NCBI RefSeq assembly: GCF_040529335.1
Contig: NZ_CP159534.1
Coordinates: 2,976,001 to 3,040,000 of the forward strand
Length of the DNA stretch: 64,000 nt
Reading direction: 5' to 3'
DNA from: Streptomyces sp. HUAS MG91
Lineage (GTDB): Bacteria; Actinomycetota; Actinomycetes; Streptomycetales; Streptomycetaceae
The translations under genes and the position numbers were made by a program. Positions 47,137 through 64,000 of this stretch are shown here, piece by piece. How positions within the stretch are numbered: position 1 is the stretch's first letter; every line of letters begins with the position of its first letter. A model generated the notes under the pieces. The model had not been told where the DNA came from, made no database searches, and saw only the letters and a program-made list of their open reading frames with translations.

Positions 47137-47182
47137 GTCGATAGATCGTCGATAGAACCCCGAAAGAACCGGAGCCTAGCTT
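47137..47182 (+). promoter_or_regulatory. Direct-repeat activator site and promoter ahead of the PKS operon (candidate)
   Basis: The heptamer TCGATAG occurs at 47138-47144 and 47149-47155. The copies are 11 bases apart, one helical turn, with 4 bases between them, and GTCGATAG is shared as an octamer. This is the spacing of SARP-family activator sites, and TCGA is their usual core. TAGCTT at 47177-47182 fits a TAnnnT -10. No SARP gene is in the window. Confidence 0.5.
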
Positions 47183-47270
47183 TCCCGGATGCGGTGGCAG
47201 GCGGGGAGGCGCCGGGTGGTGTCGGCCCGCGCACCGCTGACGGAGCAGCTCTCTCCCCGAGGTGACATCA

Positions 47271-47543
47271 ATGCCTGCATCAGTACTGATACCGCGCAAG
47301 TTCCAGGACATGGTCCGGCCGTTCCTGCCCTACGCCGACGCCGACGAGCTCGGCGCGTCGGACGAACTGGCCGCGCTGGGCCTGGACTCGATGGGCGTGG
47401 TCCAGTTGCTGGCCGCCCTGGAGGAGGGCTACGACCTGGAGTTCGAGGACGACGCCCTCAACCAGGACACCTTCGCGACCGTCGGCTCGCTGTGGCGGAC
47501 GGTGTCCGAGGCGCTGCCCGCCGGGCAGCACGCCGATGCGTGA
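47271..47543 (+). CDS. Acyl (peptidyl) carrier protein
   Basis: ATG 47271 follows a GAGGTG ribosome site with six bases spacing; GTG 47262 is weaker. The 90-residue protein has the phosphopantetheine attachment motif LGLDSMGVVQLL with Ser40. It is the first gene of the rightward operon, and its 3' end overlaps the AMP-ligase start by eight bases. It is probably the carrier on which the ligase loads its acid. The decarboxylase encoded next may act on that or on the free substrate. Confidence 0.92.
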   Translation: MPASVLIPRKFQDMVRPFLPYADADELGASDELAALGLDSMGVVQLLAALEEGYDLEFEDDALNQDTFATVGSLWRTVSEALPAGQHADA

Positions 47544-49185
47544 CAGCGCGGGCGGAACGGCGCTGCTGACCGGCGCGCCCGCCGACGGCGTCCCCGCCCC
47601 GGTGGCCCCGCTCACCGGGGTCGCCGGGCTGTGCGGGCGCGGTGCGCCGGACGCTCCCGCCCTGACGTACCGGGACACGACGCTCGACTACGCCGAGCTG
47701 CGCCGGCGGGTGGCCGGGGCGGCGGAGGGGCTGCGCCGGCTCGGGGTGCGCCGTGGCGACCGGGTCGTCGTCTTCATGGAGAAGCGCGTCGAGACCGTCG
47801 TCGCGCTGTTCGCGGTCGCGGCGGCCGGCGGGGTGTTCGTCCCGGTCAACCCGGTCTACAAGGCGCCGCAGATCCGGCACATCGTCGACGACTGCACCGC
47901 GAGCGCCGTGATCACCACGGACGAGCGGTACGCGACGGTGCGGACGGCGATCGCCGCGTCCCCGTCGGTCGCCGAGGTCGTCATCGTCGGTGAACTGCCC
48001 GGCGGGCCCGCACCCGACGACGTGGCCGACGTGACCGACGCGTCCGGGGGCCGCCTGCGGGTCACCCTCTGGCACGCGCTGCCCGGGGACGGCGGCGGCG
48101 AGGCGCCGGTCCAGGTGATCGACACCGATCTCGCGGCGATCCTCTACACCTCGGGCAGCACCGGCTCCCCCAAGGGCGTGGTCCTCAGCCACCGCAATGT
48201 GCTCGCGGGCGCGGAGAGCGTCGCCGGGTACCTGGGCCACACGCCCGACGACGTGATCCTCGCCGCCCTGCCGCTCAGCTTCGACGCGGGCTTCAGCCAG
48301 CTCACCACCGCCTTCCACGCCGGGGCGCACGTGGTCCTCGCCAACTACCTGCTCCCCGTCGAGCTGGTGCGGCTGTGCGCCCGGCACCGGGTCACCGGTC
48401 TCACGGGCGTACCCCCGCTGTGGATGCAGCTGACCGGGTGCAAGTGGCCCGCCGAGGCCACCGCCCGGCTGCGCTACTTCGCCAACACCGGCGGGCGGAT
48501 GCCCCGTTCGACGCTGGCCCGGTTGCGCGAGCTGTTCCCCGCCGCGCTCCCGTATCTGATGTACGGACTCACCGAGGCGTTCCGGGCCACGTACCTGGAT
48601 CCCGCCGAGGCGGACCGCAGGCCGGACTCCATCGGCCGGGCGATCCCCAACGCGGACGTCCGGGTGGTCCGCCCGGACGGCACCGACTGCGCGCCCCACG
48701 AGCACGGCGAGATCGTGCAGCGCGGGGCGCTGGTGGCGCAGGGGTACTGGAACGATCCCGGGCGCAGCGCCGAGCGGTTCCGCCCGGCGCCCGGGGCGGA
48801 CGGCACGGTGCGGGCCGAGATCGCGGTGTGGTCGGGCGACCGCGCGTACCGCGACGAGGACGGCTTCCTGTACTTCGTCGGCCGCGACGACGAGATGATC
48901 AAGACCTCCGGCTACCGGGTCAGTCCGACCGAGATCGAGGAGGCCGCGTACGCGACCGGGCTCGTGAGCGGGGCGGTCGCGTTCGGGCTCGCCGACGAGC
49001 GGCTGGGCCAGATCGCCGTCCTCGTCGTGGCCGGTGACACCACCGAGAGCGATCTGCGCAAGGCCATGGAGGACCAAGTGCCCCGGTACATGCTGCCCAA
49101 GCGGGTGGTGTTCCTTGACCAGTTGCCCGTATCACCGAACGGCAAGTTCGACCGGGTCGAGACCCGCAGGACGGTGACCGGGTGA
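47536..49185 (+). CDS. AMP-dependent acyl/aminoacyl ligase (acyl-CoA synthetase superfamily)
   Basis: The protein has 549 residues. The phosphate loop YTSGSTGSPKGVVLSHRNV is at about 204-222. YGLTEAF and GDRAYRDEDGFLYFVGRDDE are the A5 and A7/A8 motifs, and SPNGKFDR holds the A10 lysine. It resembles TIGR03098, the AMP ligases first described in exosortase loci, which occur in a trio with a carrier protein and a PLP decarboxylase exactly as here. It should activate a carboxylic or amino acid as the adenylate and pass it to the carrier protein. Specificity cannot be read reliably by eye. Confidence 0.9.
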   Translation: MRDSAGGTALLTGAPADGVPAPVAPLTGVAGLCGRGAPDAPALTYRDTTLDYAELRRRVAGAAEGLRRLGVRRGDRVVVFMEKRVETVVALFAVAAAGGVFVPVNPVYKAPQIRHIVDDCTASAVITTDERYATVRTAIAASPSVAEVVIVGELPGGPAPDDVADVTDASGGRLRVTLWHALPGDGGGEAPVQVIDTDLAAILYTSGSTGSPKGVVLSHRNVLAGAESVAGYLGHTPDDVILAALPLSFDAGFSQLTTAFHAGAHVVLANYLLPVELVRLCARHRVTGLTGVPPLWMQLTGCKWPAEATARLRYFANTGGRMPRSTLARLRELFPAALPYLMYGLTEAFRATYLDPAEADRRPDSIGRAIPNADVRVVRPDGTDCAPHEHGEIVQRGALVAQGYWNDPGRSAERFRPAPGADGTVRAEIAVWSGDRAYRDEDGFLYFVGRDDEMIKTSGYRVSPTEIEEAAYATGLVSGAVAFGLADERLGQIAVLVVAGDTTESDLRKAMEDQVPRYMLPKRVVFLDQLPVSPNGKFDRVETRRTVTG

Positions 49186-50396
49186 GCGCCGCGGGCGCGC
49201 TGTTCGCGCGGCACGGGGACGGTGTCCTGGAGATCGGCGGTGTGCCCGTCGACCGGCTGGCCGCCCGGGTCGGCAGCACGCCGTTCTTCGCGTACGACCG
49301 CAGGCTCGTCACCGAGCGCGTCGCGGCGGTCCGCAAGGCGCTGCCGGACGACGTGTCGCTGAAGTACGCGGTGAAGGCGAACCCTATGCCGGCGCTGCTG
49401 GCGCACATGAGCGAACTCGTCGACGGCTTCGACGTGGCGTCGGCGCAGGAGATGCGGCACGCCCTCGACACCACGCTGCCCGCGCACCGGGTGAGCTTCG
49501 CGGGCCCGGGCAAGTCGGACGCCGAGCTGTCGTCGGCGGTGGCCGCCGGGGTGATGATCGAGGCGGAGTCGGGCAACGAGCTGGAGCGGATCCGGCGCGC
49601 CGGAGAGGCGCTCGGGATCCGGCCGCGGGTGGCGCTGCGCGTCAACCCGCCGTTCGCCGTGCGGGGTTCGGGCATGCGCATGGGGGGCGGGCCGCAGCAG
49701 TTCGGCGTGGACGCCGAAGGCGTCCCGGCGCTCCTCGCACGCCTCGGTGACCTGGACTTCGAGGGCTTCCACGTCTTCGCCGGATCACAGAACCTGAACG
49801 CGGAGAGCATCTGCGAGGCCCAGCGCCTGACCGTCGAGCTGCTCCTGGAACTGGCGGAGGCCGCCCCGCAACCGGTGCGCTATCTCAATCTGGGCGGCGG
49901 TTTCGGCATCCCGTACTTCGAGCGGGACCGGCCGGTGGACCGCACGCGCATCGGCGACAACCTGGAGACGCTGCTGGCCGGACAGGTGCGGCCGCGACTG
50001 CCCGACGCCCGCGTGCACATCGAGCTGGGCCGGCATCTCGTCGGCGAGGCCGGGGTGTACGTGACCCGGGTCGTGGACCGCAAGGAGTCCCGCGGAACCA
50101 CGTATCTCGTGGTCGACGGCGGCATGCACCACCAGCTCGCCGCCTCCGGCAACTTCGGCCAGTTCATCCGCCGCAACTACCCGGTCTCGACGGCCCGCCC
50201 CGACGCCCCGGCGGAGGGGAAGGCGACGGTCGTCGGCTGTCTGTGCACCCCCCTCGACCTGCTCGCGGACGGTGTGGAGCTGCCGCACGCGGACGTCGGG
50301 GACCTGATCGTCGTCTACCAGGCGGGCGCCTACGGGCTGACGGCGAGCCCGACCGCGTTCCTCAGCCATCCCGCGCCGGCCGAGGTGCTGGTGTGA
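49182..50396 (+). CDS. PLP-dependent decarboxylase, fold type III (DAP/ornithine decarboxylase family)
   Basis: The start overlaps the ligase stop, and the protein has 404 residues. Lys65 in KYAVKANP is the PLP-binding lysine of the alanine-racemase-like barrel. LNLGGGFGIPY is the phosphate-binding glycine loop, and GCLCTPLDLL is the C-terminal Cys-containing active-site block (usually GPxCES.D). It fits TIGR03099, the exosortase-associated subgroup. Characterised members of the wider family decarboxylate diaminopimelate, ornithine, lysine or arginine. In this operon it probably makes an amine or decarboxylated amino-acid unit for the polyketide. LysA itself is unlikely because of the context. 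Confidence 0.9.
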   Translation: MSAAGALFARHGDGVLEIGGVPVDRLAARVGSTPFFAYDRRLVTERVAAVRKALPDDVSLKYAVKANPMPALLAHMSELVDGFDVASAQEMRHALDTTLPAHRVSFAGPGKSDAELSSAVAAGVMIEAESGNELERIRRAGEALGIRPRVALRVNPPFAVRGSGMRMGGGPQQFGVDAEGVPALLARLGDLDFEGFHVFAGSQNLNAESICEAQRLTVELLLELAEAAPQPVRYLNLGGGFGIPYFERDRPVDRTRIGDNLETLLAGQVRPRLPDARVHIELGRHLVGEAGVYVTRVVDRKESRGTTYLVVDGGMHHQLAASGNFGQFIRRNYPVSTARPDAPAEGKATVVGCLCTPLDLLADGVELPHADVGDLIVVYQAGAYGLTASPTAFLSHPAPAEVLV

Positions 50397-50427
50397 CCGT
50401 CCCTCCGCACGACATGGGGAGCCCCCA

Positions 50428-51261
50428 GTGCTAGAAGCAACCGAACTCACCAAGCAATACGGTGACGTGCACGCCCTCGCGGGTTTCAGTCTGACCGTGG
50501 AGGCGGGCGAGATCGTCGGTCTCGTCGGCCACAACGGCGCCGGCAAGTCCACGTTCGTCGAGATCGTGTCCGGGCTGATCCGGCCGGACTCCGGCAGGGT
50601 CACCGTCGCCGGCAAGGACCCGGCGCAGGCCCGGTCGGCCATCGGCACCTCGCCCCAGCACATCGCGCTCTACCGGCCGGTGACCGTCCGCGAGCACCTG
50701 AAGCTGTACGGCGGACTCGCGGGTCTGCGCCGCGCGGCGCTGCAGCGGGAGATCGACGAACTGGTGGGCGCGCTGCGCCTGTCGGAGTTCTGCGACCGCC
50801 CGGTGGGCCTGCTCTCCGGCGGCCAGCAGCGGCGCGCCCAGGCCGCGGTGGCGCTGATCCACCGGCCGGGTCTGCTGCTGATGGACGAGCCGACCGCGGG
50901 CGCCGACCCGGAGACCCGGCAGGCGCTGCTCGACGTGATCAAGCAGCGCGCCCGGGAGGGCACGGCGGTCGTCTACACCACCCACTACCTGCCCGAACTC
51001 GCCGAGCTTGAGGCCACGTTGGCCGTGGCGAGGGCGGGCCGGGTCATCGCCCGGGGCACCAGCGCCGAACTCCTCGACGGGCTTCCCGGGGAGGTGCGGG
51101 TCACCTTCCAGGACGAGGAGGAGGTCAGCATCTCCACGACCGAGCCGAGCACCGCGCTGGTCGGGCTGCTCAGCGGCAACGAGCGGCCGGTGGCGTCGGT
51201 GGACGTGCGCAAGCCCTCTCTCGACGATCTGTACCGATCCCTGGCGGTGGCCCATGTCTGA
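50428..51261 (+). CDS. ABC-2 exporter ATP-binding protein of the PKS cluster
   Basis: GTG 50428 gives 277 residues. Walker A GHNGAGKST, signature LSGGQQRRAQAA, Walker B LLLMDEPTAGADP and the switch TTHYLPE are present, with a C-terminal DrrA-like extension. It is coupled to the permease gene (8-base overlap). In polyketide clusters such pairs usually export the product and confer self-resistance. Confidence 0.93.
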   Translation: MLEATELTKQYGDVHALAGFSLTVEAGEIVGLVGHNGAGKSTFVEIVSGLIRPDSGRVTVAGKDPAQARSAIGTSPQHIALYRPVTVREHLKLYGGLAGLRRAALQREIDELVGALRLSEFCDRPVGLLSGGQQRRAQAAVALIHRPGLLLMDEPTAGADPETRQALLDVIKQRAREGTAVVYTTHYLPELAELEATLAVARAGRVIARGTSAELLDGLPGEVRVTFQDEEEVSISTTEPSTALVGLLSGNERPVASVDVRKPSLDDLYRSLAVAHV

Positions 51262-52006
51262 CGCTCTGCTCCGCAGCGGTGTGCTGGTCAAGCACAACGT
51301 CATCCTCCGGCTGCGCGACCCCGGCCAGATGATCAGCTACCTGGTGGTGCCCATGGTGCTGATGGTGGTCTTCAAGCCGCTGTACGTGAAGGCCCTCGAC
51401 GGCAGCACGTTGCAGGCGGTCACCGGGCCGCTCGTGATGTTCTCGGTCTTCGCCCTGTCGATCGTGGGCAACTCGATCCTGCTGGAGCGCGAGTGGCACA
51501 CCTGGGACCGGCTGCGGGTGACGCGGGCGAACCAGGCCGAGCTGCTCATCGGCAAGACCGTGCCCGTGTTCGTGGTGCTCGTGGTGCAGCAGCTGACGCT
51601 GCTGGTGTACGGCTCCTTCATCATCGGCCTCGACGTGACCGGCCCGGTCCTGCTGATCGCACTGGCGATCATGGTGTGGGGGTTCACCCTGCTCGCCATG
51701 GGCTCGGCGCTGGCGACCGTGGTCCGCAGCCGCGGTGACCTGCATCTGGCGACCGACCTCGGGTCGATCATCGTCTCCTCGCTGGGCGGGGCGGTCGTGC
51801 CGGTCAGCCTGATGCCGTCCTGGGCCGCCCAGCTGGCCCATGTCTCCCCCGGTTACTGGGGTCTGACGATGATTCAGTCCGCCGTCGTGGGCGACGTCGA
51901 CAGGACGCTGCGCTCCGCGGTCGTCTGCCTCGCCGTGGGTGCCGCGTTCGGCGCTTTCGCGGTGTACCGGCTGTCCCGCGGCTGGGGCCGCAGCCGCCTG
52001 CTCTGA
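51254..52006 (+). CDS. ABC-2 exporter permease of the PKS cluster
   Basis: ATG 51254 overlaps the ATPase stop; the product has 250 residues. Six membrane helices are evident, with the ABC-2 pattern LMVVFKPLYVKAL near the first extracytoplasmic loop and the helix SIIVSSLGGAVVPVSLMPSW. It is a DrrB-like partner for the ATPase and lies 30 bases before the PKS gene. Confidence 0.92.
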   Translation: MSDALLRSGVLVKHNVILRLRDPGQMISYLVVPMVLMVVFKPLYVKALDGSTLQAVTGPLVMFSVFALSIVGNSILLEREWHTWDRLRVTRANQAELLIGKTVPVFVVLVVQQLTLLVYGSFIIGLDVTGPVLLIALAIMVWGFTLLAMGSALATVVRSRGDLHLATDLGSIIVSSLGGAVVPVSLMPSWAAQLAHVSPGYWGLTMIQSAVVGDVDRTLRSAVVCLAVGAAFGAFAVYRLSRGWGRSRLL

Positions 52007-52036
52007 ACCGAACCCCCCTGACCAAAGAGGTCCAAA

Positions 52037-55000
52037 GTGACGGAGACCGACTATCAGTCCGCGGTCGCGATCATCGGCATGTCGGGGCGTTTCCCCGGCG
52101 CGTCCGGTGTGCGCGAGCTGTGGCAGCACCTGCTCGACGGAACGCCGGGGCTGCGTGAGATCACCGACGAGGAACTGCGCGCCGCGGGCGTCGATCCGCA
52201 GCGGCTCGACCCCGAGTACGTCCGGGTCGGCGGCCCGGTGGACGGCATCGACCGCTTCGACGCCACCGTGTTCGGGTTCAGCCCGCGCGAGGCGGAGACG
52301 ATGGAGCCGCAGCACCGGCTCTTCCTCGAATGCGCCTGGGAGGCGCTGGAGAGCGCCGGGCACTGCCCGACCTCCCACGACGTCCCGGTCGGCGTCTTCG
52401 CCGGCTGCGGCTACCCCGACTACATGCGCGACAACCTGGCCGGGCTCGGCGACGAGCCCGGCGGCCACCTGCTGCTGGCGGCGGGCAGCGAGCGCGACTC
52501 GCTGACCTCGCTGGTCGCCTACAAGCTGGGGCTGCGCGGCCCCAGCATCACCGTGCAGACGTTCTGCTCGACCTCGCTGGTCGCGGTGCACATGGCGTGC
52601 CAGAGCCTGCTCACCTACGAGTGCGACACCGCCCTCGCCGGCGGCGTCGCCCTGCCGCTGCCGCAACCGGCCGGCTACCGCTACGAGCAGGGCGGCATCC
52701 TCTCGCCCGACGGCACGGTCCGCAGCTTCGACGCCGCCGCCAACGGCAGCGTCATGGGCAGCGGCGTCGGCGTCGTCGCCCTCAAGCGGATGACCGACGC
52801 CCTCGCCGACGGCGACATCATCCACGCCGTGATCCTCGGCTCCGCGGTCAACAACGACGGCCGCGAACGGGTCGGTTACACGGCGCCCGGCGTCGAGGGC
52901 CAGGCCGGAGTGATCAAGGCGGCGCTCGACGTCGCCGACGTCAAGCCCGAGAGCGTCGGCTACGTGGAGTGCCACGCCACCGGCACCAATCTGGGCGACG
53001 CGATCGAACTGACGGCGATGAGCAAGGTGTTCCCCGACGGCCGGGACACGCCCTGCGTGCTGGGCTCGCTCAAGCCCAGCGTCGGCCACCTGGACCGCGC
53101 CTCGGGGGTGACCGGCCTGATCCGCGCCACCTTCGCGGTGCGCGAGGGGGTGCTGCCCGGCACGCCCGGCTTCGATGCGCCCAACCCGGCGCTGGCCACG
53201 GCCGGTGACCGGTTCGCCGTCCACACGCAGGCCCGGCCCTGGCCCGCCGGGGCGCACCCGCGCCGCGCCGGCGTCAGCTCCTTCGGCCTGGGCGGCACCA
53301 ACGCCCACGTGGTGCTGGAAGAGGCGCCGCGCCCCGCCGACCCGCCCCGGCGGCCCGGCCCGCAGGTGCTGGCGTTCTCCGCGGCCGACCGGCCCGCGCT
53401 GGACGCGCTCACCGACCGGCTGCGCGCACACCTGGCCACGCACCCCGAGATCGACCTGGCGGACGTGGCGTACACCCTTCAGCGGTCGCGCGGGCAGTTC
53501 GGGCTGCGCCGCGCCGTGGTCTGCGCGGACCGTGCCGACGCGGTGGCCGCGCTGGCCGATCCGGCCCGGCTGCTCGACGGCGAGACGCAGCGGCAGGACG
53601 CGACGGTGCGGCTGACCGGCGCCGCCGACGTGCCGGACGCGTGGTGGGCCGGGCTCGGCGCCGCGCTCGGCGCGGTTCCCGGTACGGACCGGGACGGGGT
53701 GCTCGCCCTCGCCGCCGAGACGCTCACCCGGCTCGGTGTCCGCGTGGTCGCCGAGGCAGGGCCCGACACCGTCGAGGCCCGCCTCGGCGAGGGGCCCGCC
53801 GCGCACTGGCCCGCGACCGTGCTCGCCAGGCTGTGGCTGGCCGGTGTCCGCGTCGACTGGCCGGCGCTGCACCTCGCGCCCGGCGGCGCCCGCACCGCCC
53901 GGCTCGTCGAACTGCCCACGTACCCCTTCCAGCGGCGCCGTTACTGGGTGGATCCCGCGCCCGCCGAGCCGGTCCGCGCGGAGCGGTCGGCGGGCCGGAC
54001 GGACGACGTCGCCGACTGGACGTATCTGCCGACCTGGCGGCAGCGGCTGTTCCCCGCGGCCGACCTGGACGCGCGGCTCCGGGCCGCCGGCCCCTGGCTG
54101 GTGCTGTCCGGCGACGCGCGCGGCGAGGCCCTGATCGAGCGGCTGCACACGGCCGGCGCCGAGGCCGGCGCCATCCGGCTCGGGGACGGCTTCGACATGG
54201 ACGAGGCCGGCGATCTGACGGTCGGTCCGGTCCCGGCGGACGACGTGGCCGAGGCGCTCTCATCCCTGATGGTGGCGCCGCGGACCATCGTGCACGCCTG
54301 GAGCCTGGCGGACCCGGGCGACGCTCCGGACGCCGCGTCGGCCGGATCCGCGGCCGCCACGGCGGCGTTCGACGCGGGCCAGGAACTCGGCGTCCACAGC
54401 GCGCTCGCCCTGGCCGGCGCCCTCGTCCGGGACGCGGTGGGCGGCGAGACGGAGCTGGTGCTGCTGACCTCCGGCGCGGCGGGCGTCACCGGGGCCGAGC
54501 CCAGCCGTGCCGCGCACGCGGCGCTGGCCGCGCTGGCTCCCTCGCTGGCGCAGGAGAACCCGGCCCTGGGCTGCCGTTCCGTCGACGTGGACGAGGCGGC
54601 CGCGGGCGGTGACCGGGCGCTGTCCCGGATGGCGGAGGCCGTGCTCACCGCCGCCGTGGCCGACCACGAGGGGCCGGTGGCCGTGCGTGCCGGGGAGACC
54701 TGGCTGCGCGGGTACGAGCCGCTGCGTCTCGACCGGCCGCGCGAGCCGCTGTTCCGGGAGGGCGAGACCGTGCTGATCACGGGCGGCCTCGGCGACGTGG
54801 GGCTGACCCTGGCCCGTCATCTCGCGGGGACCTACCGGTGCCGGCTGGTGCTGACCACCCGGGCCGCGCTGCCGCCCCGCGAGGAGTGGCCGCGCTACGA
54901 GCACGCCGCGCCGGACGGCGCGGAGCGGGTGGCCCGGCACGTGCGCAACGTGCTGGACCTGGAGCGGCGCGGCGCCGAGGTCCTCGCCGTCTCCGCCGAT

Positions 55001-55819: not shown

Positions 55820-55829
55820 CGGCCCGCAC

Positions 55830-55880
55830 GAACGCCGGTGGGGCGTGACCGCTCGTAGCGGTCACGCCCCACCGGCGTTC
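55830..55880. terminator. Bidirectional terminator between the convergent PKS operons
   Basis: A perfect 24-bp stem, arms 55830-55853 and 55857-55880 (GAACGCCGGTGGGGCGTGAC and four more bases), closes on a CGT loop. It starts 11 bases after the rightward PKS stop and ends 11 bases before the leftward thioesterase stop. Confidence 0.93.
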
Positions 55881-55890
55881 TGCGTCGGGA

Positions 55891-56664
55891 TCAGCTCGCG
55901 GACAGGGCCCAGGGCCGCAGCGCGGACTCGATGTGCCGGTGGGTCGCGGCGGCCTGTTCCAGCGCCGCGAAGTGCCCACCGCTCAGGGTCCGCAGGGTGA
56001 ACGGACCCGTGGTGTGCGCCTCCCAGGCCGCCGCGTCGGCCACGGAGGCCCGCGGGTCGTCCGTCGCCGCGAGCGCCGTCACCGGCAGCGAGAGCGGGGC
56101 GCAGGGGACGTACCGGTAGTTCTCCTTGACGGTGAAGTCGGCCCGGAACGGCGGCAGGACCATGGCGAGCAGCGCCCGGTTGCCCAGCAGCCACTCGGGG
56201 GTGCCGCCGAGCCTGCGCAGCACCTCGGCGATCTGCTCCGTGGACATGTCCCGGATGGGCGTGAGCCCCTCCAGGCCCCCGCACAGCTCGGGGGCGCCGC
56301 AGCCGGAGACCATCAGGTGCACCGGCTCCGGTCCGCCGACCGCCCCGATGCGGCGCACCAGTTCGAACGCGGTCATCGCGCCGAGGCTGTGTCCGTAGAC
56401 GGCGTACGGGACGCCGCCGGAGTCGGCCACGTCGGCGAGGACCGCCTCGGCGAGATCGGCGACCAGGTCCTCCATGTGCGCGTACGGCGTCTCGCGGTGC
56501 CGTCCCTCGCGGCCCGGCGGCTGCACCGGGCGGACGTCGACCCCGGGGACGGCGCCGATCCACGACCGGAACGCCGAGGCGGACCCGCCGGCGTGCGGCA
56601 GGCAGTACAGCCGGAGGGGCTCGGCGCCCGGGCGGTAGGGCAGCCAGCGTGCCGGGTCAGTCAT
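55891..56664 (-). CDS. Type II thioesterase
   Basis: The 257-residue alpha/beta hydrolase starts at ATG 56664, overlapping the FkbH-like gene by eight bases. The nucleophile Ser93 is in YGHSLGAM. LPHAGGSASAF forms the oxyanion strand, and SGGHFAALEQ holds the catalytic His. Type II thioesterases edit misprimed or stalled carrier proteins in PKS and NRPS lines. Neither PKS protein seen here has its own TE domain, so this enzyme could also release the product. Confidence 0.93.
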   Translation of the reverse strand: MTDPARWLPYRPGAEPLRLYCLPHAGGSASAFRSWIGAVPGVDVRPVQPPGREGRHRETPYAHMEDLVADLAEAVLADVADSGGVPYAVYGHSLGAMTAFELVRRIGAVGGPEPVHLMVSGCGAPELCGGLEGLTPIRDMSTEQIAEVLRRLGGTPEWLLGNRALLAMVLPPFRADFTVKENYRYVPCAPLSLPVTALAATDDPRASVADAAAWEAHTTGPFTLRTLSGGHFAALEQAAATHRHIESALRPWALSAS

Positions 56665-57748
56665 CGGCGTCGCCCGCCGAGTCGACGATGTCGAGGGTGA
56701 CGTAGGCCGGCGGGTCCTGGAGGTTGTCCAGGTCGGCGCCGAGCACCACGCGGTCGCCGTCGCGGCTGACCTCGGTGAAGCCGCTGAAGGCGTAGGTGAT
56801 CTGCATCATGCGGTTGCGGCCGGTCTCCACGAAGTCCGCGTGCAGCTCGGCCCCGGCCGTGCGGGCGAGCCGCATGAGGTGGTTGAGGAGCACCATGCCG
56901 ACGCCTCGGGACATCACGCGGCAGGACATCAGCATCATCCGCAGGTGCCAGACGTCCCCCGCCCGCTCCACCAGGGCGAGCCCGATCTTGCCGTAGCCGC
57001 CGAACCGGTCGGTCAGCGAGGCGACGAGCAGCAGGTGGTCGTCGGACCTGCGCAGCTCGTCCAGTTCGTCGTACGAGTACGTACGGCCGGTGGAGTTGAG
57101 CTGGTTGGTGCGCAGCGTGAGTTCCTCGGCGCGCTGGAGGTCCTCGCGGCGTGCGGGCGCGATCGTGAAGCGCATGTCGAGCCCGGCGAGGAACTCCTCG
57201 CTGGTGCCGACGAATTCACGGGCGAGCCCGTCCCGGGTGAGCTGCGCCCGGTACATGCCGCGGCGCTCGGCCGACTCGTCGGTCACGAACCGCGGCCGGA
57301 AGTCCGGCCGGTGCAGCACTTCGTCGATGTCGACGACGTCGACGCAGGTCACCTCGGGCACCACCGCCTCGACCTCGGCCCGTTCGAAGGGCTGGTCGTC
57401 GACGAACGCGAAGGCGTCCAGGCCGAGGTTGAGGGCGCCCGCGATGTGCCGGATCGAGTCCGACTTGGCGTTCCAGCCGATCTGCGGGCACAGGAACAGG
57501 TCCTCGATGCCGAGGTCGCGGAGGACGGCCAGCGCGGTCTCGGGGTCGTTCTTGCTGGCCACCGAGTGCAGGACGCCCATCCGGTCCAGGCGGCGGATGT
57601 GCTCGACCACGTGCGGCCTGAGCGTCACCTCGCCGTCCTCCAGGAGGACCCCGTCCCACAGGGTGTTGTCCAGGTCCCACACCACGCACTTGATGCGTCC
57701 CTGTGCGGGCTTCGTCGGCAGCGCGGCGACCGCGCCCTGCTGGCTCAT
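56657..57748 (-). CDS. FkbH-like HAD-family glyceryl-ACP synthase
   Basis: ATG 57748 overlaps the acyl-CoA dehydrogenase stop, giving 363 residues. The HAD nucleophile motif is WDLDNTLWDG (Asp25, Asp27), followed by SKNDPE and FVDDQPFER. The C-terminal half is the GNAT-like part of FkbH proteins (LRTNQLNSTGRTYS, WHLRMMLMSCRVMSRG). FkbH enzymes take 1,3-bisphosphoglycerate, dephosphorylate it and load the glyceryl group on a dedicated carrier protein. This is the first step to hydroxymalonyl- or methoxymalonyl-ACP. Confidence 0.93.
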   Translation of the reverse strand: MSQQGAVAALPTKPAQGRIKCVVWDLDNTLWDGVLLEDGEVTLRPHVVEHIRRLDRMGVLHSVASKNDPETALAVLRDLGIEDLFLCPQIGWNAKSDSIRHIAGALNLGLDAFAFVDDQPFERAEVEAVVPEVTCVDVVDIDEVLHRPDFRPRFVTDESAERRGMYRAQLTRDGLAREFVGTSEEFLAGLDMRFTIAPARREDLQRAEELTLRTNQLNSTGRTYSYDELDELRRSDDHLLLVASLTDRFGGYGKIGLALVERAGDVWHLRMMLMSCRVMSRGVGMVLLNHLMRLARTAGAELHADFVETGRNRMMQITYAFSGFTEVSRDGDRVVLGADLDNLQDPPAYVTLDIVDSAGDADD

Positions 57749-58896
57749 CGCTGGTCCTCCGGGGTCCTGCCGTAGTCCTGCCGGAACGCCTCGTCGGCGA
57801 TGGTGATCCGCTGGATCTCGCTGCTGCCCTCGATGATCTCCATGACCTTGGCGTCGCGGTAGAAGCGGGCCGTCGGGGAGCCGGGGGCGCAGCCGAGCGC
57901 GCCGTGGATCTGCACGGCCTCCGTCGCGTGCCGGGCGGCGGCGGTGGAGGCGAAGTACTTGGCCACCCAGGTGGCCATGATGGTCGCGGAGTCCCCGGCG
58001 TCCTTGAGCCGGCCGGCCTCCTCGCAGAGCAGCCGCGCCGCCCGTACGTCGGTCACCATGTCCGACAACTTGGCGCGGATCAGCTGGAGTTCGGAGAGCG
58101 GGGCACCGCCGACGGTGCGCTGTGCGGCGTATCCGGCGCTGGCGTCCAGGCACGCCTGGACGATGCCCACCGAACCGGCGGCCACGCTGTAGCGCCCGAG
58201 GTCCAGGACGCCGGACAGCACCATGCCGCTGGCGAAGCCGCTCGGCCCCACCAGGGCGTCGGGGCCGAGGAGGACCTCGTCGAAGGCGACCTCGGCCAGC
58301 ATCGACGCCCGGGTGCCGAGCATGTCGTGGATCGGCTCGACGCGTACGCCGGGCGCGGTGCGCGGGACCAGGAAGGCGCTGATGCCCGACCCGTTGCGGG
58401 CGAAGACCAGGAAGAGGTCGGCGCGCGCCCCGTTGGTGATCCACTTCTTGACGCCGCTGAGCAGCCAGCCGCCACCGTGGGCGGTCGCGGTGGTGGTGAT
58501 GCCGACGGCGTCGCTGCCCGCGCCGGGCTCGGAGAGGCAGAACGCGCCGAGGACGCGGCCCGCGGCGAGGTCGGGCAGCCAGCGTTCGCGCTGGGCGTCG
58601 CTGCCCCAGCGCTGGACCGCCCAGGACACCATGGTGTGGACGGTCAGCAGGCTGCGTACGGAGGAACAGCCGCGGCCGATCTCCTCGTGGACGGCGCCGA
58701 GTCCCCGCATGTCCAGGCCGGCCCCGCCGACCTCGGGCGGCAGGAACGGGGCCCACAGGCCCGCCTCGGTCAGGCGGGCCAGGAACTCCTCCGGGATCGC
58801 CCCGGCACGGTCCCACCGGTCCGCCTCCGGAACGACATGGGCGTCCACGAAGGACCGGACGGCGCTCCGGTCGAGTGTCGGGAGAGCAGTGGTCAT
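57745..58896 (-). CDS. Acyl-CoA dehydrogenase family flavoprotein, FkbI-like
   Basis: ATG 58896 gives 383 residues, the normal acyl-CoA dehydrogenase length. LSEPGAGSDA and WITNGARADLF are flavin/substrate motifs, and MEIIEGSSEIQR contains the catalytic Glu. In the FkbG-K type pathway this enzyme oxidises glyceryl-derived units on the carrier protein. It lies 11 bases downstream of the carrier-protein gene, and its stop overlaps the FkbH-like start, as in methoxymalonyl-ACP cassettes. Confidence 0.92.
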   Translation of the reverse strand: MTTALPTLDRSAVRSFVDAHVVPEADRWDRAGAIPEEFLARLTEAGLWAPFLPPEVGGAGLDMRGLGAVHEEIGRGCSSVRSLLTVHTMVSWAVQRWGSDAQRERWLPDLAAGRVLGAFCLSEPGAGSDAVGITTTATAHGGGWLLSGVKKWITNGARADLFLVFARNGSGISAFLVPRTAPGVRVEPIHDMLGTRASMLAEVAFDEVLLGPDALVGPSGFASGMVLSGVLDLGRYSVAAGSVGIVQACLDASAGYAAQRTVGGAPLSELQLIRAKLSDMVTDVRAARLLCEEAGRLKDAGDSATIMATWVAKYFASTAAARHATEAVQIHGALGCAPGSPTARFYRDAKVMEIIEGSSEIQRITIADEAFRQDYGRTPEDQR

Positions 58897-58907
58897 CGTC
58901 CTGGTCC

Positions 58908-59162
58908 CTACGCGGAGACGGCGCCGGCGAGGCGGCGCTCCACCAGCTCGGCCATCGAGGAGACGGTGCGGAAGTTGTCGATGCGCAGTTCGTCGTTGGG
59001 CAGGGAGACGCCGAACTCCTTCTCGATGAACATCACGAGCTCCATCGCGAAGAGGGAGTTGATGAAGCCGAGCGAGAAGATGTCCTGGTCGTCCGTCAGC
59101 TCGGCCTGCGGGTGGCGGCCGACGATGAAGGCGCGGATGGTCTGCGCGTGGGTGTTCGCCAT
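58908..59162 (-). CDS. Dedicated acyl carrier protein, FkbJ-like
   Basis: The 84-residue protein has phosphopantetheine site Ser36 in SLGFINSLFAMEL, where the usual LDS is INS as typical of FkbJ-type carriers. Start ATG 59162 follows a GGAAGGGAGA region. It should carry the glyceryl, 2-hydroxy-3-oxo and hydroxymalonyl intermediates. It is distinct from the LDSM-type carrier protein encoded at 47271. Confidence 0.92.
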   Translation of the reverse strand: MANTHAQTIRAFIVGRHPQAELTDDQDIFSLGFINSLFAMELVMFIEKEFGVSLPNDELRIDNFRTVSSMAELVERRLAGAVSA

Positions 59163-59228
59163 GAGAGTGCTCCTCGGAAGGGAGAGACAGGAGAGGGAGA
59201 AGGGGAAGAGTGGTGCGGGAGGTACGGC

Positions 59229-60074
59229 TCAGCCGTCGTACGTGTAGAAGCCGCGGCCGGACTTGCGGCCGTGCAGCCCCGCGTCGGTCATCTGCTTGAG
59301 CAGCGGGCAGGGGCGGTACTTGCTGTCGGCGTAGTGCTCGTAGAGCACCTCGACGCTGTAGAGGATCGTGTCGACGCCGATGAGGTCGGCGGTCTCCAGG
59401 GGGCCCATGGGGTGGCCGAAGCAGCCGCGGAAGACCTCGTCGACCTGCTCGGCGGTGGCGACGCCCTCGTGGACCAGGTAGGCGGCCTCGTTGACGGTCA
59501 GCATCAGGACGCGGTTGGAGACGAACCCGGCCGAGTCCTTGACCTCCACGGCCTTCTTGCCCATGCCGGTCAGCAGGTCGCGGGTGCGCTGGACGGTCTC
59601 CTGCGAGGTGTGGACGCCGGGGATCAGCTCGACGACCGGCTTCGCGGGCACCGGGTTCATGAAGTGGACGCCGACGGTCTGGGCGGGGCGGCTGCTCAGC
59701 GAGGCGACGCGGGTGATCGGGATCGCCGAGGTGTTGACGATGACGACGGTGTCCGGCGCGCAGACCTCGTCGATCTCGCGGTGCACCCGCTGCTTGATCT
59801 CCCAGTTCTCGGTGACGTTCTCGATCACCGTCGACGCCTTGGCCAACGCGCCCACGCCCACCGCGGTGGTGATGCGGGCGAGGATCTCGTCGGCGTCGAG
59901 CGCGGGGCCGCCCATCAGGGCGCTCATGCGGCAGTTGCGGGTGATCGTGGCGCGGGCCGCGTCCAGGGTCTCCTCGTCCTTGTCGACGAGCACGACGTCG
60001 TACCCGCACTGCGCGAGGTTCTGGGCGACGCCCACGCCCATCACGCCGGCGCCCACCACTCCGATGACGCTCAT
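59229..60074 (-). CDS. 3-hydroxyacyl-CoA dehydrogenase family enzyme, FkbK-like
   Basis: ATG 60074 gives 281 residues; the longer open frame belongs to another frame's shadow. The Rossmann motif is IGVVGAGVMGVGVAQ. The catalytic region GVHFMNPVPAKPVVELI contains the active His, and the C-terminal domain ends GLHGRKSGRGFYTYDG. In hydroxymalonyl/methoxymalonyl-ACP pathways this NAD-dependent enzyme oxidises the primary hydroxyl of glyceryl-ACP. It precedes the carrier protein by 66 bases in the same operon. Confidence 0.92.
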   Translation of the reverse strand: MSVIGVVGAGVMGVGVAQNLAQCGYDVVLVDKDEETLDAARATITRNCRMSALMGGPALDADEILARITTAVGVGALAKASTVIENVTENWEIKQRVHREIDEVCAPDTVVIVNTSAIPITRVASLSSRPAQTVGVHFMNPVPAKPVVELIPGVHTSQETVQRTRDLLTGMGKKAVEVKDSAGFVSNRVLMLTVNEAAYLVHEGVATAEQVDEVFRGCFGHPMGPLETADLIGVDTILYSVEVLYEHYADSKYRPCPLLKQMTDAGLHGRKSGRGFYTYDG

Positions 60075-60154
60075 GTCCACTCCGTTCGGTCGTACTGCGG
60101 TTGTTGTGTCCGTTGCCGTGTCTGTCGCTGTGTCTGTCGCGGGCTCGGCCGCTG

Positions 60155-63100
60155 TCAGGCGCGGGCCGCCGCGCGGCGGGCGCCCAGCGCCTGTCGCCTG
60201 CGCTCCATGCGGTCGCCGGAACCGGTGTCCCGCGCGGCCGTCGCGTCCGCCGAAGCGCCGGCCAGGGCGGCGGTCATGGCCGCGACGGTCGGGTGCTCGA
60301 AGAGCAGGGCCGGGGCGACCGGCCGGCTCAGCCGCTTCTCCAGGGCGGCCACCATCGACAGGCCGATCAGGGAGTTGCCGCCGAGCTCGAAGAACGGGTC
60401 GTGCACGCCGACCTGTTCGAGGCCCAGGTACGCGCTCCACACGTCGGCGACCGTGCTCTCCAGGCCCGCGGCCGGGGCCACGTACGCGCTGCGCAGGTGC
60501 GGGCGCGGGAAGCGGGTGGTGCCGACCGCCTCGCGGGCCGTCCCGGCGGGCGCGTCCAGGTCGGACAGCGACTCCCAGGCGCGGCGGGCCGCGTCCAGCG
60601 GCTGGCGCAGCGCCAGGACCGGCCCCCGCGCCCCGGCGATCAGCCGGTCGAGGAGGCGGCATCCGCCCTCGTCGGTGAAGCCGTACGTGCCGCGGTAGGC
60701 GCGCACGCGTTCCGCGAGGCCGTCCTCGGCCTCGGCGCCCCAGGCGTCGTGCTGCCAGGGGCTCCAGGCCACCGAGAGGACCCGGGTGCCGGGGGCGGCG
60801 TCGGCGAGTCGGGCGGCGTACGCGTCCAGGACGGTGTTCGCGGCGCAGTAGTCGCCCTCGCCCAGGCCGCCGAGCACGGTGACCGCGGACGAGTACAGGA
60901 CGAGCAGTTCGAGGCGTTCGTCCTCGGGGGCCGCGGGGCCGGTCAGCTCCGCGAGCGGGGCCATCGCCAGGACCTTCGGCGCGAGCACGGCCGCCGTCCG
61001 CTCCGGGGTGCCGCGCACGGCGAGCCCTCCGGCGGGGACGCCCGCCGCGTGCACCACGCCGTGCAGGGCGCCGAAGTGCTCGCGGCACCGGCGCAGCGCG
61101 CCGCGCAACTGCTCGGGCACCCCGGCGTCGGCGGTGAGCAGCAGGACCTCGGCGCCGGCGGCCTCCAGCGCGGCGACCTCGCGCAGGGTGCGGGCGGCGG
61201 GGGTGCCGTCGTCCGGCGCGGCCCGGTCCAGGGGGGTGCGGCCGACCAGGGCGAGCCGGCGGACGCCGGAGTCCACCAGGTGGCGGGCCAGGGTCAGGCC
61301 CAGGCCGCGGGTGCCGCCGGTGATCAGGTAGGTGCCGTCCGGCCGCCACACGGCGGGCGGGGCGGCGGGCAGGTCGATCCTGCCCCAGCCGCGCAGCCAG
61401 CGGCGGCCGCGGCGGACGGCGGCCAGGGCGTCGGCGCCGGTGTCCGTCTCCGGGTCCGTCCACGGGCCGCGGCGCAGTTCGTGGCCGAGGGCCACCGCCG
61501 CCTCCGGGAGGTCCGGGCCGGTCTCCAGGTCGAGGCCGCGCCAGCGCAGGGCCGGATGTTCGCTGCGCAGGATGCGGCCGAGGCCGTGCACGAGGGACCG
61601 TTCGGGGGCGGTGACGTCCCCGCCGGTCACCTCGACGGCTCCGGCGGTGACCGTGAGCAGGCGGGTCTCCCGGCCGCCCGCGGTGTCGGCGAGGGCCTGG
61701 AAGGCGAGGAGAAGGGTGTCGAAGCCCCGGGTGACGGCCGTGCGCAGCGCCGTCTCCTCGGCCTGCGCCTCGGGGCCGGTGGTGGCCCGTGAGTCCAGGC
61801 TCCACAGGTGGGCGAGGTGCAGGGGCCCGGAGCCGAGCGCGGCGGCCGCGGTGAGGACCTCCTTGTGGTGCGCCGGGTCCGCCGGGTCGATGACGAGGCG
61901 CCGGCCGTCGCGGCGCGGGCCGGTGCCCGCGACCACTTCGAGGACGGGCGTGCCCGCGGCGGCGGCTAGGTCGGCGAGCGCGGCGCCGGTGCCGCCGCCG
62001 TCGCCGAGGACGACGAGCGGGCCGTCGAGGGCGGGCGCGAGGACGTCGTGGGCGACGTCGCGCTGCCAGGTCGGCGCGTAGCAGGCGTCCGTGGGGTCGG
62101 CCCGGCCGTCGTCGGCGGGGCCCGTGCCGGGTGCGGTGACGGGGCCTGTGGCCGGTTCGGGCCAGAAGCGGGTGCGCTGGAACGGGTAGCCGGGCAGGTC
62201 GGTGAGGGCGGCTCCGGCGGTGCGCAGTGCGGGCCAGGACACGTCCACGCCGGTTTCCCAGACGCGGGCGCAGGTCTCCAGGAGCGCGCCGCGCGCGTCC
62301 TTGCGGTTCTGGGCGGGCCACGGCGCGGGCAGTGTGCCGAAGACGGCGTGCGCCTGGCCGGGGCCGTTCTGCCGGACGAGTCCGCCGAGGGTCTGTCCGG
62401 CGCCCAGTTCGACGTAGACGTCGACGCCCAGCGTCGCGCAGTGGGCGATGCCGTCGGCGAAGCGGACCGGGCGGACCAGGTGTTCGGCCCAGTACTCCGG
62501 GTCGGTGGCCTGGGCCGCTGTCAGCCGGGTGCCGGTGAGGTTGGAGACGATGGTGCCGGTGGGTTCCGCGCGGGGCACGTCGGCGATGAGGGCGGCCAGC
62601 CGGGCGCGGGCCGGTTCCAGGAGCGTGGAGTGGAAGGCGTGCGCGGAACGCAGCGGCCGGCAGGCCACGGAACGCTCCGTCAGATGCCGCTGGACGCGTT
62701 CGATCTCGTCCGGGCGGCCGCTGAGCACGGTCATGTGGGGGCCGTTGAGCGCCGCGACGTCGACCGTGGCGCCGCACTGGGCGAGGGCCGCGCGGGTCTC
62801 CTGCTCGCCGACGGAGACGGCGAGCATCCGGCCGGGTTCGGCCGCCTCGATGAGCCGGGCCCGTTCGATGACGATGCGCAGCGCGTCCTCGGGGGTGAAC
62901 ACCCCGGCCAGGCAGGCGGCGACGTACTCACCGAGGCTGTAGCCGATGAGGACGTCGGGAGTGATGCCCCAGTGGCGGAGCAGAACCGCGAGCGCGTACT
63001 CGACGCTGAAGAGGAAGGGGTGCGCCACCTCGGCGTGGTGCAGCGGGTCGTCCGCCTCCTCGGGGGCGGCGGACGCGCGGCCGAGCAGCGCGGCCAGGTC

Positions 63101-64000
63101 GGGGGCGCCGGAGGGGGCGGCCTCCTCGGGGAAGAAGGCGGGGCGCAGGTCGACGCCGCAGCCGTCGGCGACGGCGATGCAGCGGTCGACGGCGGCGGCG
63201 AAGACGGGCTCGTCCCGGTAGAGGCCGCGGCCCAGACCGGCGTACTGGTCGCCCGTCCCGGGCAGCAGGAACGCCACGCGCGGCCGGCCCCGGCCGCGGC
63301 GCACGCCGGGCTCGCCGGGTTCGGCGGCCGCGCCCGCGAGGAGGGCGGCGGCCTCCTGGTGTCCGGTCGCGACCACGGCCCGCCGGAACTCCTGCGCCGA
63401 GCGGCCCTCGCGGAGCGTGTACGCCAGGTCGGCGAGGCGCGTGCCGTCGGGTGTGCCGATCCGTTCGGCGAGCTCGCCGAGGCGGGCGCGCAGGGCGTCC
63501 GGTCCCGCGGCGGAGACGGTGAACACCTCGGCGCGCGGCGGAAGGGGCTCGGCGGACTCGGCGGCCGGAGCGGCCGGTTCCGGGGCGGCTTCCAGGACGA
63601 GGTGCGCGTTCGTGCCCGACCAGCCGAACGAGCTGACGCCGGCGACCCGTCGCCGCCCGTCCTCGACGAGCGGGTGCGAGCGTACGGCGGGCCGGACGGT
63701 GCCGTCCTCCGGCACGGCCTCGGCCGGGGCGGTCTGGTGCAGGTTGGGCGGTACGACGCCGTGCTTGAGGACGAGCACGGTCTTGATCAGTCCGGCCACG
63801 CCCGCCGCGGAGAGCGTGTGGCCGATGTTGGTCTTCACGGCGCCGACGGCCAGCGGGCGGTCGGCGGGACGGTCCTTGAACACGTCGTGCAGGGCGCCCA
63901 GTTCGATGGCGTCGCCGAGCCGGGTGGCCGAGCCGTGCGCCTCGACGTAGGAGACCTCGCCGGGTTCGACGGCGGCCGCGGCCAGCGCCTCCTTGATGAC
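60155..64000 (-). CDS. Modular polyketide synthase KS-AT-KR-ACP, N-terminus beyond the window
   Basis: The frame is open to the window edge, showing 1281 residues. The ketosynthase C-terminal part has VEAHGSATRLGD and TNIGHTLSAAGVAG. The acyltransferase (about 235-540 of the fragment) has FLLPGTGDQYAGLG, nucleophile GYSLGEY (codon near 62,936) and HAFHSTLLEP, the malonyl-type HAFH signature. The ketoreductase has YLITGGTRGLGLTLA and SSAVTVLGGLGEGDYCAAN. The terminal carrier domain has ELGGNSLIGLSM. There is no DH, ER or TE. It heads the leftward operon that makes hydroxymalonyl-ACP. Confidence 0.94.
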   Translation of the reverse strand, partial: VIKEALAAAAVEPGEVSYVEAHGSATRLGDAIELGALHDVFKDRPADRPLAVGAVKTNIGHTLSAAGVAGLIKTVLVLKHGVVPPNLHQTAPAEAVPEDGTVRPAVRSHPLVEDGRRRVAGVSSFGWSGTNAHLVLEAAPEPAAPAAESAEPLPPRAEVFTVSAAGPDALRARLGELAERIGTPDGTRLADLAYTLREGRSAQEFRRAVVATGHQEAAALLAGAAAEPGEPGVRRGRGRPRVAFLLPGTGDQYAGLGRGLYRDEPVFAAAVDRCIAVADGCGVDLRPAFFPEEAAPSGAPDLAALLGRASAAPEEADDPLHHAEVAHPFLFSVEYALAVLLRHWGITPDVLIGYSLGEYVAACLAGVFTPEDALRIVIERARLIEAAEPGRMLAVSVGEQETRAALAQCGATVDVAALNGPHMTVLSGRPDEIERVQRHLTERSVACRPLRSAHAFHSTLLEPARARLAALIADVPRAEPTGTIVSNLTGTRLTAAQATDPEYWAEHLVRPVRFADGIAHCATLGVDVYVELGAGQTLGGLVRQNGPGQAHAVFGTLPAPWPAQNRKDARGALLETCARVWETGVDVSWPALRTAGAALTDLPGYPFQRTRFWPEPATGPVTAPGTGPADDGRADPTDACYAPTWQRDVAHDVLAPALDGPLVVLGDGGGTGAALADLAAAAGTPVLEVVAGTGPRRDGRRLVIDPADPAHHKEVLTAAAALGSGPLHLAHLWSLDSRATTGPEAQAEETALRTAVTRGFDTLLLAFQALADTAGGRETRLLTVTAGAVEVTGGDVTAPERSLVHGLGRILRSEHPALRWRGLDLETGPDLPEAAVALGHELRRGPWTDPETDTGADALAAVRRGRRWLRGWGRIDLPAAPPAVWRPDGTYLITGGTRGLGLTLARHLVDSGVRRLALVGRTPLDRAAPDDGTPAARTLREVAALEAAGAEVLLLTADAGVPEQLRGALRRCREHFGALHGVVHAAGVPAGGLAVRGTPERTAAVLAPKVLAMAPLAELTGPAAPEDERLELLVLYSSAVTVLGGLGEGDYCAANTVLDAYAARLADAAPGTRVLSVAWSPWQHDAWGAEAEDGLAERVRAYRGTYGFTDEGGCRLLDRLIAGARGPVLALRQPLDAARRAWESLSDLDAPAGTAREAVGTTRFPRPHLRSAYVAPAAGLESTVADVWSAYLGLEQVGVHDPFFELGGNSLIGLSMVAALEKRLSRPVAPALLFEHPTVAAMTAALAGASADATAARDTGSGDRMERRRQALGARRAAARA

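Follow-up and report, generated by a model that had tools for sequence, protein, structure and literature searches.

The window is a 64,000-nucleotide stretch of Streptomyces sp. HUAS MG91 (bases 2976001-3040000 of contig C1; the genome is 8.6 Mb in two contigs). Between 47271 and 64000 it carries two convergent operons of a polyketide synthase (PKS) cluster. This cluster may be a butyrolactol-like polyol PKS cluster which has gained a beta-alanine module; we give the full scheme an even chance. Its new feature, within the literature searched, is the union of a butyrolactol-type half with a free-standing aspartate to beta-alanine module and a condensation (C) domain, conserved across actinobacteria; the parts themselves are known. 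Parts, motifs and gene orders are read from the sequence, and the chemistry is deduced from them.

Gene content of the cluster

Open reading frames were called by codon usage, and families were assigned with Pfam and NCBIfam profiles; the family scores of all named parts are far above chance. The closest named homologues of window proteins (85-90%) come from Streptomyces. Positions beyond 64000 are extended coordinates (genome position minus 2976000). The plus-strand operon encodes an acyl carrier protein (ACP), an AMP ligase, a pyridoxal phosphate (PLP) decarboxylase, an ABC exporter and a PKS; the minus-strand operon encodes a thioesterase, the four proteins of a hydroxymalonyl-ACP cassette and two further PKS proteins. 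They converge between 55819 and 55891. PKS domains are given as ketosynthase (KS), acyltransferase (AT), dehydratase (DH), enoylreductase (ER), ketoreductase (KR) and ACP. The core features are:

47271..47543, plus: g39, stand-alone ACP of the trio (PF00550, 38.5 bits; cut-off 20.8)
47536..49185, plus: g40, adenylating ligase, predicted to load aspartate through its side-chain carboxyl (AMP-binding 285.3; TIGR03098 685.6 bits, cut-off 592.35)
49182..50396, plus: g41, PLP-dependent aminoacyl-ACP decarboxylase (Orn/Arg decarboxylase N 116.5; TIGR03099 574.3, cut-off 478.45)
50428..51261, plus: g42, ABC exporter ATPase (PF00005; 51% homologue in the pSCAT cluster)
51281..52006, plus: g43, ABC-2 permease (PF01061; 44% homologue in the pSCAT cluster)
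52037..55819, plus: g44, PKS module KS-(AT deleted)-KR-ACP, likely terminal (Pfam; alignment; KS tree)
55891..56664, minus: g45, type II thioesterase (PF00975)
56657..57748, minus: g46, FkbH-type glyceryl transferase/phosphatase (TIGR01686 278.1, cut-off 146.65; HAD hydrolase)
57745..58848, minus: g47, acyl-CoA dehydrogenase, hydroxymalonyl-ACP route (Pfam; 70-76% homologues in the cassettes of relatives)
58908..59162, minus: g48, ACP, hydroxymalonyl carrier (PF00550; position in the cassette)
59229..60074, minus: g49, 3-hydroxyacyl-CoA dehydrogenase, hydroxymalonyl-ACP route (PF02737/PF00725; 77-82% homologues in the cassettes of relatives)
60155..64000 and on to extended 64993, minus: g50, PKS module KS-AT(GYSLG)-KR-ACP, hydroxymalonyl type (Pfam, including an N-terminal docking domain)
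extended 64990-80562, minus: g51, PKS of 5190 residues, KSQ-AT-ACP followed by two modules KS-AT-DH-ER-KR-ACP
extended 89398-91002: g61, stand-alone C domain

A sequence-only reading of the window had described the two convergent operons with their ACP, AMP ligase, PLP decarboxylase, exporter and PKS, and the profiles confirm all of these. The glycerate-derived extender pathway that it proposed is likewise present, with FkbH, ACP, acyl-CoA dehydrogenase and 3-hydroxyacyl-CoA dehydrogenase all in the minus-strand operon, and its idea that an activated-amino-acid route and a hydroxymalonyl-ACP pathway serve a short PKS is supported. It expected the cluster to run past the right edge; extension past 64000 gave the rest of g50, g51, the C domain and a block of KAS III, ACP and dehydrogenase genes, with the right end at roughly extended 95 kb. 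Both PKS proteins that it counted are present, but g51 brings the number in the whole cluster to three (g44, g50 and g51). Its start for the first ACP, 47137, is replaced by the ATG at 47271, which lies behind GAGG and is supported by this ribosome-binding site and by relatives.

The probable beta-alanine module

A carrier protein, a stand-alone adenylating ligase and a PLP decarboxylase stand together as g39, g40 and g41. After the megasynthases LgrA and 8xjz, the best PDB match of g40 is 3wvn, which we take to be VinN. The nearest PDB chains of g41 are 7ru7 and 2j66 (BtrK); the BtrK record is named L-glutamyl-[BtrI ACP] decarboxylase. The profiles TIGR03098 and TIGR03099, whose cut-offs g40 and g41 exceed, are those of the exosortase A-associated system. 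The binding pocket of g40 presumably comprises D250, R350 and K537, positions placed by adenylation-domain motifs and spacing and not by superposed structures. It thus has the Asp expected to hold the amino group and the Arg expected to hold the alpha-carboxyl. Asp 250 and Arg 350 lie 100 residues apart; the corresponding distance in VinN is 101 (Asp230 and Arg331, from PMC7756342 and PMC12186527). PMC7756342 also names Ser299 of VinN, and g40 has Thr where Ser299 would fall. Among 64 ligase homologues (23 PKS-type and 41 non-PKS), Arg is found in 64/64 and Asp in 62/64 (two are gapped), and there is no variation at the Arg, Met, Thr and Lys positions. The same amino acid is probably used in the two settings.

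Two described systems indicate which amino acid this might be. Reconstitution of AfcQ, AfcK and AfcP of AFC-BC11 showed side-chain activation of L-Asp, followed by its decarboxylation to beta-alanine while bound to the carrier; the ligase has a pocket Arg (PMC12186527). For bolagladin, conversion of aspartate to beta-alanyl-ACP by BolO, BolC and BolN is proposed in PMC7756342. It is quite likely that the trio of the window makes beta-alanyl-ACP from aspartate. The ligase pocket does not differ between the two settings, so this likely chemistry also extends to a ligase/decarboxylase pair whose database names reflect nothing but its link to exosortase loci.

The butyrolactol-type half

The gene table of butyrolactol A in PMC5355916 gives the order PKS orf17 (3135 aa), PKS orf18 (1169 aa), 3-hydroxybutyryl-CoA dehydrogenase, ACP, acyl-CoA dehydrogenase, FkbH and thioesterase; several genes in this table have their best matches in S. 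cattleya. The labelling data of the same paper place hydroxymalonyl label at C1-C8, equal to four units. The S. cattleyicolor plasmid pSCAT has the butyrolactol order, with c41 (3085 aa, two GYS-type ATs), c40 (1154 aa, KS-KR-ACP) and the cassette. Homologues of g49, g48, g47, g46 and g45 are found there at 72, 64, 59, 69 and 43%, and homologues of g42 and g43 lie near by; homologues of g38, g39, g40, g41 and g61 are absent from 94 kb of pSCAT at E<=1e-5. The window contains all parts of the butyrolactol-type arrangement with the cassette in the same order, but the AT-less g44 is in the opposite operon. The four hydroxymalonyl-derived units of butyrolactol have no full counterpart: there is one GYS-type AT (g50) and the AT-deleted g44.

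Of the last four modules in the pSCAT line, two carry GYS ATs, one has a damaged AT and one is the AT-less c40, which suggests that its AT-poor modules receive hydroxymalonyl in trans. The damaged AT is the second one of c42 (L162/L163, about 350693-360934), in which no active Ser is seen by eye.

One operon of the window holds the whole extender cassette: FkbH, ACP, acyl-CoA dehydrogenase and 3-hydroxyacyl dehydrogenase. PKS g50 has the order docking-KS-AT-KR-ACP, and its AT motif is GYSLG in place of GHSxG. This agrees with the GYSxG marker of ATs that use hydroxymalonyl-ACP; among the zwittermicin ATs using ACP-bound extenders, Table 2 of PMC4207774 gives GYSLG for ZmaF and GYSFG for ZmaA-AT. 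No O-methyltransferase is found among the scanned cluster genes (g62 and g72 are outside the scan).

In the first KS of g51, Gln replaces the active Cys (GQSSS), which defines a KSQ loading module; the same replacement is found in G199, G009, G003 and G013. The AT motifs of g51 are, in order, GHSQG/YASH, GHSVG/HAFH and GHSQG/YASH, and the usual motif reading of these is methylmalonyl, malonyl and methylmalonyl. Pattern matching or visual reading suggests that its DH, ER and KR motifs are intact. As g51 begins with a KSQ loading module, an amino acid is not the starter. This bears on whether the trio could instead supply a macrolactam with a beta-amino acid as its starter, in the manner of vicenistatin and fluvirucin. 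Those clusters do have a ligase, a stand-alone ACP and a decarboxylase that the trio resembles (PMC11284099), but the loading module is KSQ-AT-ACP and not an ACP domain that receives an amino acid. Five enzymes are described in that paper as common to beta-amino-acid macrolactam clusters, including a second ligase, a dipeptidyl acyltransferase and an amidohydrolase. Neither a second ligase nor a dipeptidyl acyltransferase is annotated in the present cluster, and the second ligase of a relative, used as a query, matched only g40 and 28 residues of g74, which is outside the cluster. A macrolactam starter is very unlikely.

The AT-deleted module

Alignment with g50 and with the loading module of g51 shows that g44 lacks the AT core, including both catalytic motifs, and keeps the post-AT linker. 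Pattern matching picked up the first His of its KS, its KR and its ACP and nothing else; the Cys and the second His of the KS were identified visually. No stand-alone AT is annotated among the genes of the cluster, the only part of the genome that this statement covers. Over 1127 aligned columns g44 is 53% identical to pSCAT c40, and the domain order is the same.

In a tree of 37 KSs from the window cluster and five related clusters, 14 fall in one branch (support 100). By gene and domain order all of these follow a hydroxymalonyl module, although for g44 and its orthologues within the branch this placement is itself the inference under test. Inside the branch, g44 pairs with pSCAT c40 (branch 100); the KS of g50 groups with those of first hydroxymalonyl modules, including that of pSCAT c42 (99). 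Because of these positions g44 is placed after g50.

A different order of assembly has to be weighed here: the chain from g50 could already be linked to beta-alanyl-ACP by the C domain before it reaches g44, which would extend it as an N-acyl-beta-alanyl chain. Two observations argue for this order and against the placement just given. One is that g44 sits in the trio operon and not beside g50. The other is that its KS, by score, is nearer than the g50 KS to those of hybrid nonribosomal peptide synthetase (NRPS)/PKS systems. It scores 403-499 bits in PDB to such KSs (4wky, 8xjy/8xju, 4oqj, ClbC and ClbK), and lower to CurL (351), DEBS 2hg4 (328) and EryAI (311). The g50 KS, as a control, scores 434 to CurL, 411 to DEBS 2hg4 and 404 to EryAI, with no Clb chain among its matches at E<=1e-100; 7zma is the first PDB match of both. 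The closeness of the g44 KS to hybrid KSs would fit an acceptor of aminoacyl chains. On the other side, the relative of g44 with the same domain order, c40, is in a cluster without trio or C domain, and the KS branch of g44 and its relatives is that of modules following a hydroxymalonyl module. We consider the alternative order, with beta-alanine before g44, unlikely.

Condensation domain and KAS III block

Close members of the g61 family number at least 63 and come from Streptomyces, Micromonospora, Actinacidiphila and Labedaea, among others; His137 and Asp141 of the HxxxD motif are invariant in 63/63. The extended region has only this one C domain, and several relatives have a second one.

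The KAS III-like protein g59 lies near g57 (extended 85866-86657; L011:6866-7657), which has no family match; a KAS III/thiolase fold is predicted for it without sequence similarity. It is likely an inactive partner of g59 in a heteromeric KAS III pair. Together with the ACP g60 and the dehydrogenases g58, g63 and g64, the pair recalls the KAS III acyltransferases and dehydrogenase known from bolagladin and AFC-BC11. The block does not belong to the core. G009 holds the g57, g59, g60, g63 and g64 kinds; G199 has the g60, g63 and g64 kinds and lacks the g57 and g59 kinds; none of the five kinds is found in the fetched stretches of G003 and G013.

Distribution among actinobacteria

A relative at E<=1e-60 was found in 51/391 genomes of the order, nine of them at 69-100% identity, the source genome included. 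In a scan of contigs the best 80 of 431 relatives were kept; by their neighbours, 37 are PKS-type, 42 are non-PKS and one (L126) is too short to judge. The PKS-type genomes have the decarboxylase (37/37), the C domain (37/37), FkbH (36/37) and a g44 relative (33/37, of which 22 are almost full-length, 10 are partial and one is split in two). At the same thresholds the 42 non-PKS genomes have no C domain, FkbH or g44 relative, an association partly built in by the neighbour-based split. The best match to g46 is at 73-86% in 36 of the 37 PKS-type genomes. Where the genes share a contig, g44 is within 51 kb of the decarboxylase in 27/27 cases, FkbH within 48 kb in 27/27 and the C domain within 60 kb in 29/30, the last being at 61 kb.

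This distribution also bears on whether the trio has a different function, for example in modifying a cell-surface polymer, and only happens to lie beside the PKS cluster. Homologues at 65-74% with the same ligase pocket do occur outside PKS clusters, and where these settings were inspected they are polysaccharide loci. Against this, the PKS-type decarboxylases form one branch (100/99) in an unrooted tree of 81 sequences, with only L126 on their side, and the C domain and FkbH (37/37 and 36/37) accompany the trio in PKS-type genomes and in 0/42 of the others. An unrelated job for the trio is highly improbable.

G003 and G013, which share the genus label of G009 (Catenulispora sp. EB89), each have three DH-KR modules and four GYSLG ATs; their products are predicted to be polyene-polyols. 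Among the clusters examined, that of the window stands at the short, saturated end.

Other features of the relatives were seen. Some PKS-type relatives (L056:8622-10157 and the G009 relative) have a second, distant AMP ligase (25-27% to g40), which is absent from the window cluster. Five of the 36 best FkbH matches (G419, G403, G401, G424 and G421) have one in-frame TGA within the matched stretch. Two non-PKS loci (L074:7493-8353 and L094:7624-8370) encode, directly upstream of the ligase, a protein (248-286 aa) whose GNAT match falls below threshold; it is a candidate acyltransferase using beta-alanyl-ACP.

Proposed pathway

In the proposed scheme, g51 would load propionyl from methylmalonyl on its KSQ module and add malonyl and methylmalonyl, both fully reduced, to give 2-methylheptanoyl. 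Hydroxymalonyl-ACP would be made by g46-g49; g50 would add this unit and reduce it to 2,3-dihydroxy-4-methylnonanoyl. The chain would pass to g44, which would add a trans-charged unit (probably hydroxymalonyl supplied by the g50 AT) and reduce it to 2,3,4,5-tetrahydroxy-6-methylundecanoyl. Meanwhile g40 would activate L-aspartate at its side-chain carboxyl and load g39, and g41 would remove the alpha-carboxyl to leave beta-alanyl-ACP. The g61 C domain would join the chain to the beta-amino group, so that the polyketide would finish in an amide of beta-alanine. It would then be released by g45 or processed further by the KAS III/dehydrogenase block, and g42/g43 would export the product. What sets the family apart from a butyrolactol-type line is the added trio and C domain, and it is simplest to suppose that these end the chain in this way.

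Several points count against this scheme in addition to the operon position and KS scores of g44. The RXR site of the g50 AT is A-C-R, whereas hydrophobic residues are expected for an AT using hydroxymalonyl-ACP; the second AT marker, as set out in PMC4207774, is therefore only partly matched. Neither the C-terminus of g50 nor the N-terminus of g44 shows a recognisable docking domain, and no releasing thioesterase domain was found. The extender unit of g44 and the AT that supplies it are inferred, and 4/37 PKS-type genomes gave no g44 at threshold. Butyrolactol orf18 is likened to c40 by size and gene order and not by sequence, and the pSCAT cluster, although homologous to that of butyrolactol, is not proven to make the compound. 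The scheme does not account for the role of the KAS III block.

A broader claim can be put forward tentatively, and we hold it to be somewhat less probable than not. An aspartate to beta-alanine module, found elsewhere in polysaccharide loci, would have been joined once to butyrolactol-like clusters together with a C domain. It would now act as a free-standing NRPS-like terminating module, in which the condensation, adenylation, thiolation and decarboxylase functions are separate proteins. The products would form an undescribed class of polyhydroxyacyl beta-alanines (or, with the dehydrogenases, dehydro-beta-alanine enamides) across actinobacteria. The family of undescribed clusters has a fixed, easily mined signature: the trio, the C domain, the AT-deleted module and the hydroxymalonyl cassette. 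It also suggests a possible route by which a butyrolactol-type polyol chain is ended as an amide instead of a lactone.

Flanking genes

Features on either side of the core are:

42695..45937, minus: g37, Tricorn-type S41 peptidase, possible left edge (Pfam Tricorn_C1, PDZ_Tricorn, Peptidase_S41)
45944..46963, minus: g38, helix-turn-helix regulator (weak HTH matches)
beyond g51, in order: two transthyretin-like proteins, SARP-type regulator g54, AcpS-type phosphopantetheinyl transferase g55, GNAT g56, g57
next: acyl-CoA dehydrogenase g58, KAS III g59, ACP g60
after g61: dehydrogenase-like g63 and g64, small proteins g65-g67 (g66 weakly GNAT-like), second phosphopantetheinyl transferase g68

At the left edge, the regulator g38 and the Tricorn protease g37 may belong to the cluster. 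A g38 homologue (>=40%) is present in the fetched stretch of 21/37 PKS-type loci. A g37 homologue is present in 2/37 and in G199, and it adjoins the cluster in G199, L062 and L063. The g37 peptidase is divergent, with two other copies in the genome at 39-41%; next to the cluster, it could be involved in resistance or amide processing. The two transthyretin/HIUase-like proteins lie between g51 and the SARP regulator (L011:1720-2626), and G199 has one homologue (32%). At L011:12336-12533 (extended 91336-91533) is a small low-complexity protein of Lys/Ala/Thr/Ser repeats; G199 has a similar Lys/Ala/Ser-rich protein of 93 aa in the matching place. On the second contig (G000:C2, about 165 kb), PKS-like DNA matches at about 50-125 kb probably represent a PKS cluster of its own, carried by a smaller replicon.

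Comparison with known systems

BtrK of the butirosin pair BtrI/BtrK is the nearest solved decarboxylase to g41; the butirosin pair acts on glutamate, and no PKS is known to be involved. The vicenistatin proteins VinN, VinL and VinO share with the window a ligase, a stand-alone ACP and decarboxylation on the ACP, but there the unit is a protected macrolactam starter, whereas the window PKS has a KSQ starter module (PMC11284099 for vicenistatin). AfcQ, AfcK and AfcP of AFC-BC11 likewise include a stand-alone VinN-type ligase, a carrier and a PLP decarboxylase, with a KAS III-like acyltransferase in the cluster; they differ in that the authors say no C domains are used, and a hydroxymalonyl route is not mentioned in the relevant passages (PMC12186527). 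Resemblances to bolagladin are a trio proposed to turn aspartate into beta-alanyl-ACP, homologues of KAS III and an acyl-CoA dehydrogenase, which in bolagladin yields dehydro-beta-alanine; there the beta-alanine unit starts an NRPS and the fatty acid is citrate-derived (PMC7756342).

The earlier reading held that each part was already known and that it knew of no described actinobacterial product from this exact set. The first is agreed, and the minus-strand half is additionally a butyrolactol-type arrangement; as to the second, no described cluster with the whole set was found in the literature searched (MIBiG was not compared). The butyrolactol-type order, the KSQ starter, the AT-deleted g44, the C domain and the occurrence of the set beyond this strain are additions to that reading. 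Butyrolactol A and pSCAT lack the trio and the C domain (as judged from the gene table and from 94 kb of pSCAT), have far more modules and use another starter, but they share with the window the cassette order, a PKS of about 1160 aa, an ABC pair nearby and a polyol made from hydroxymalonyl-ACP.

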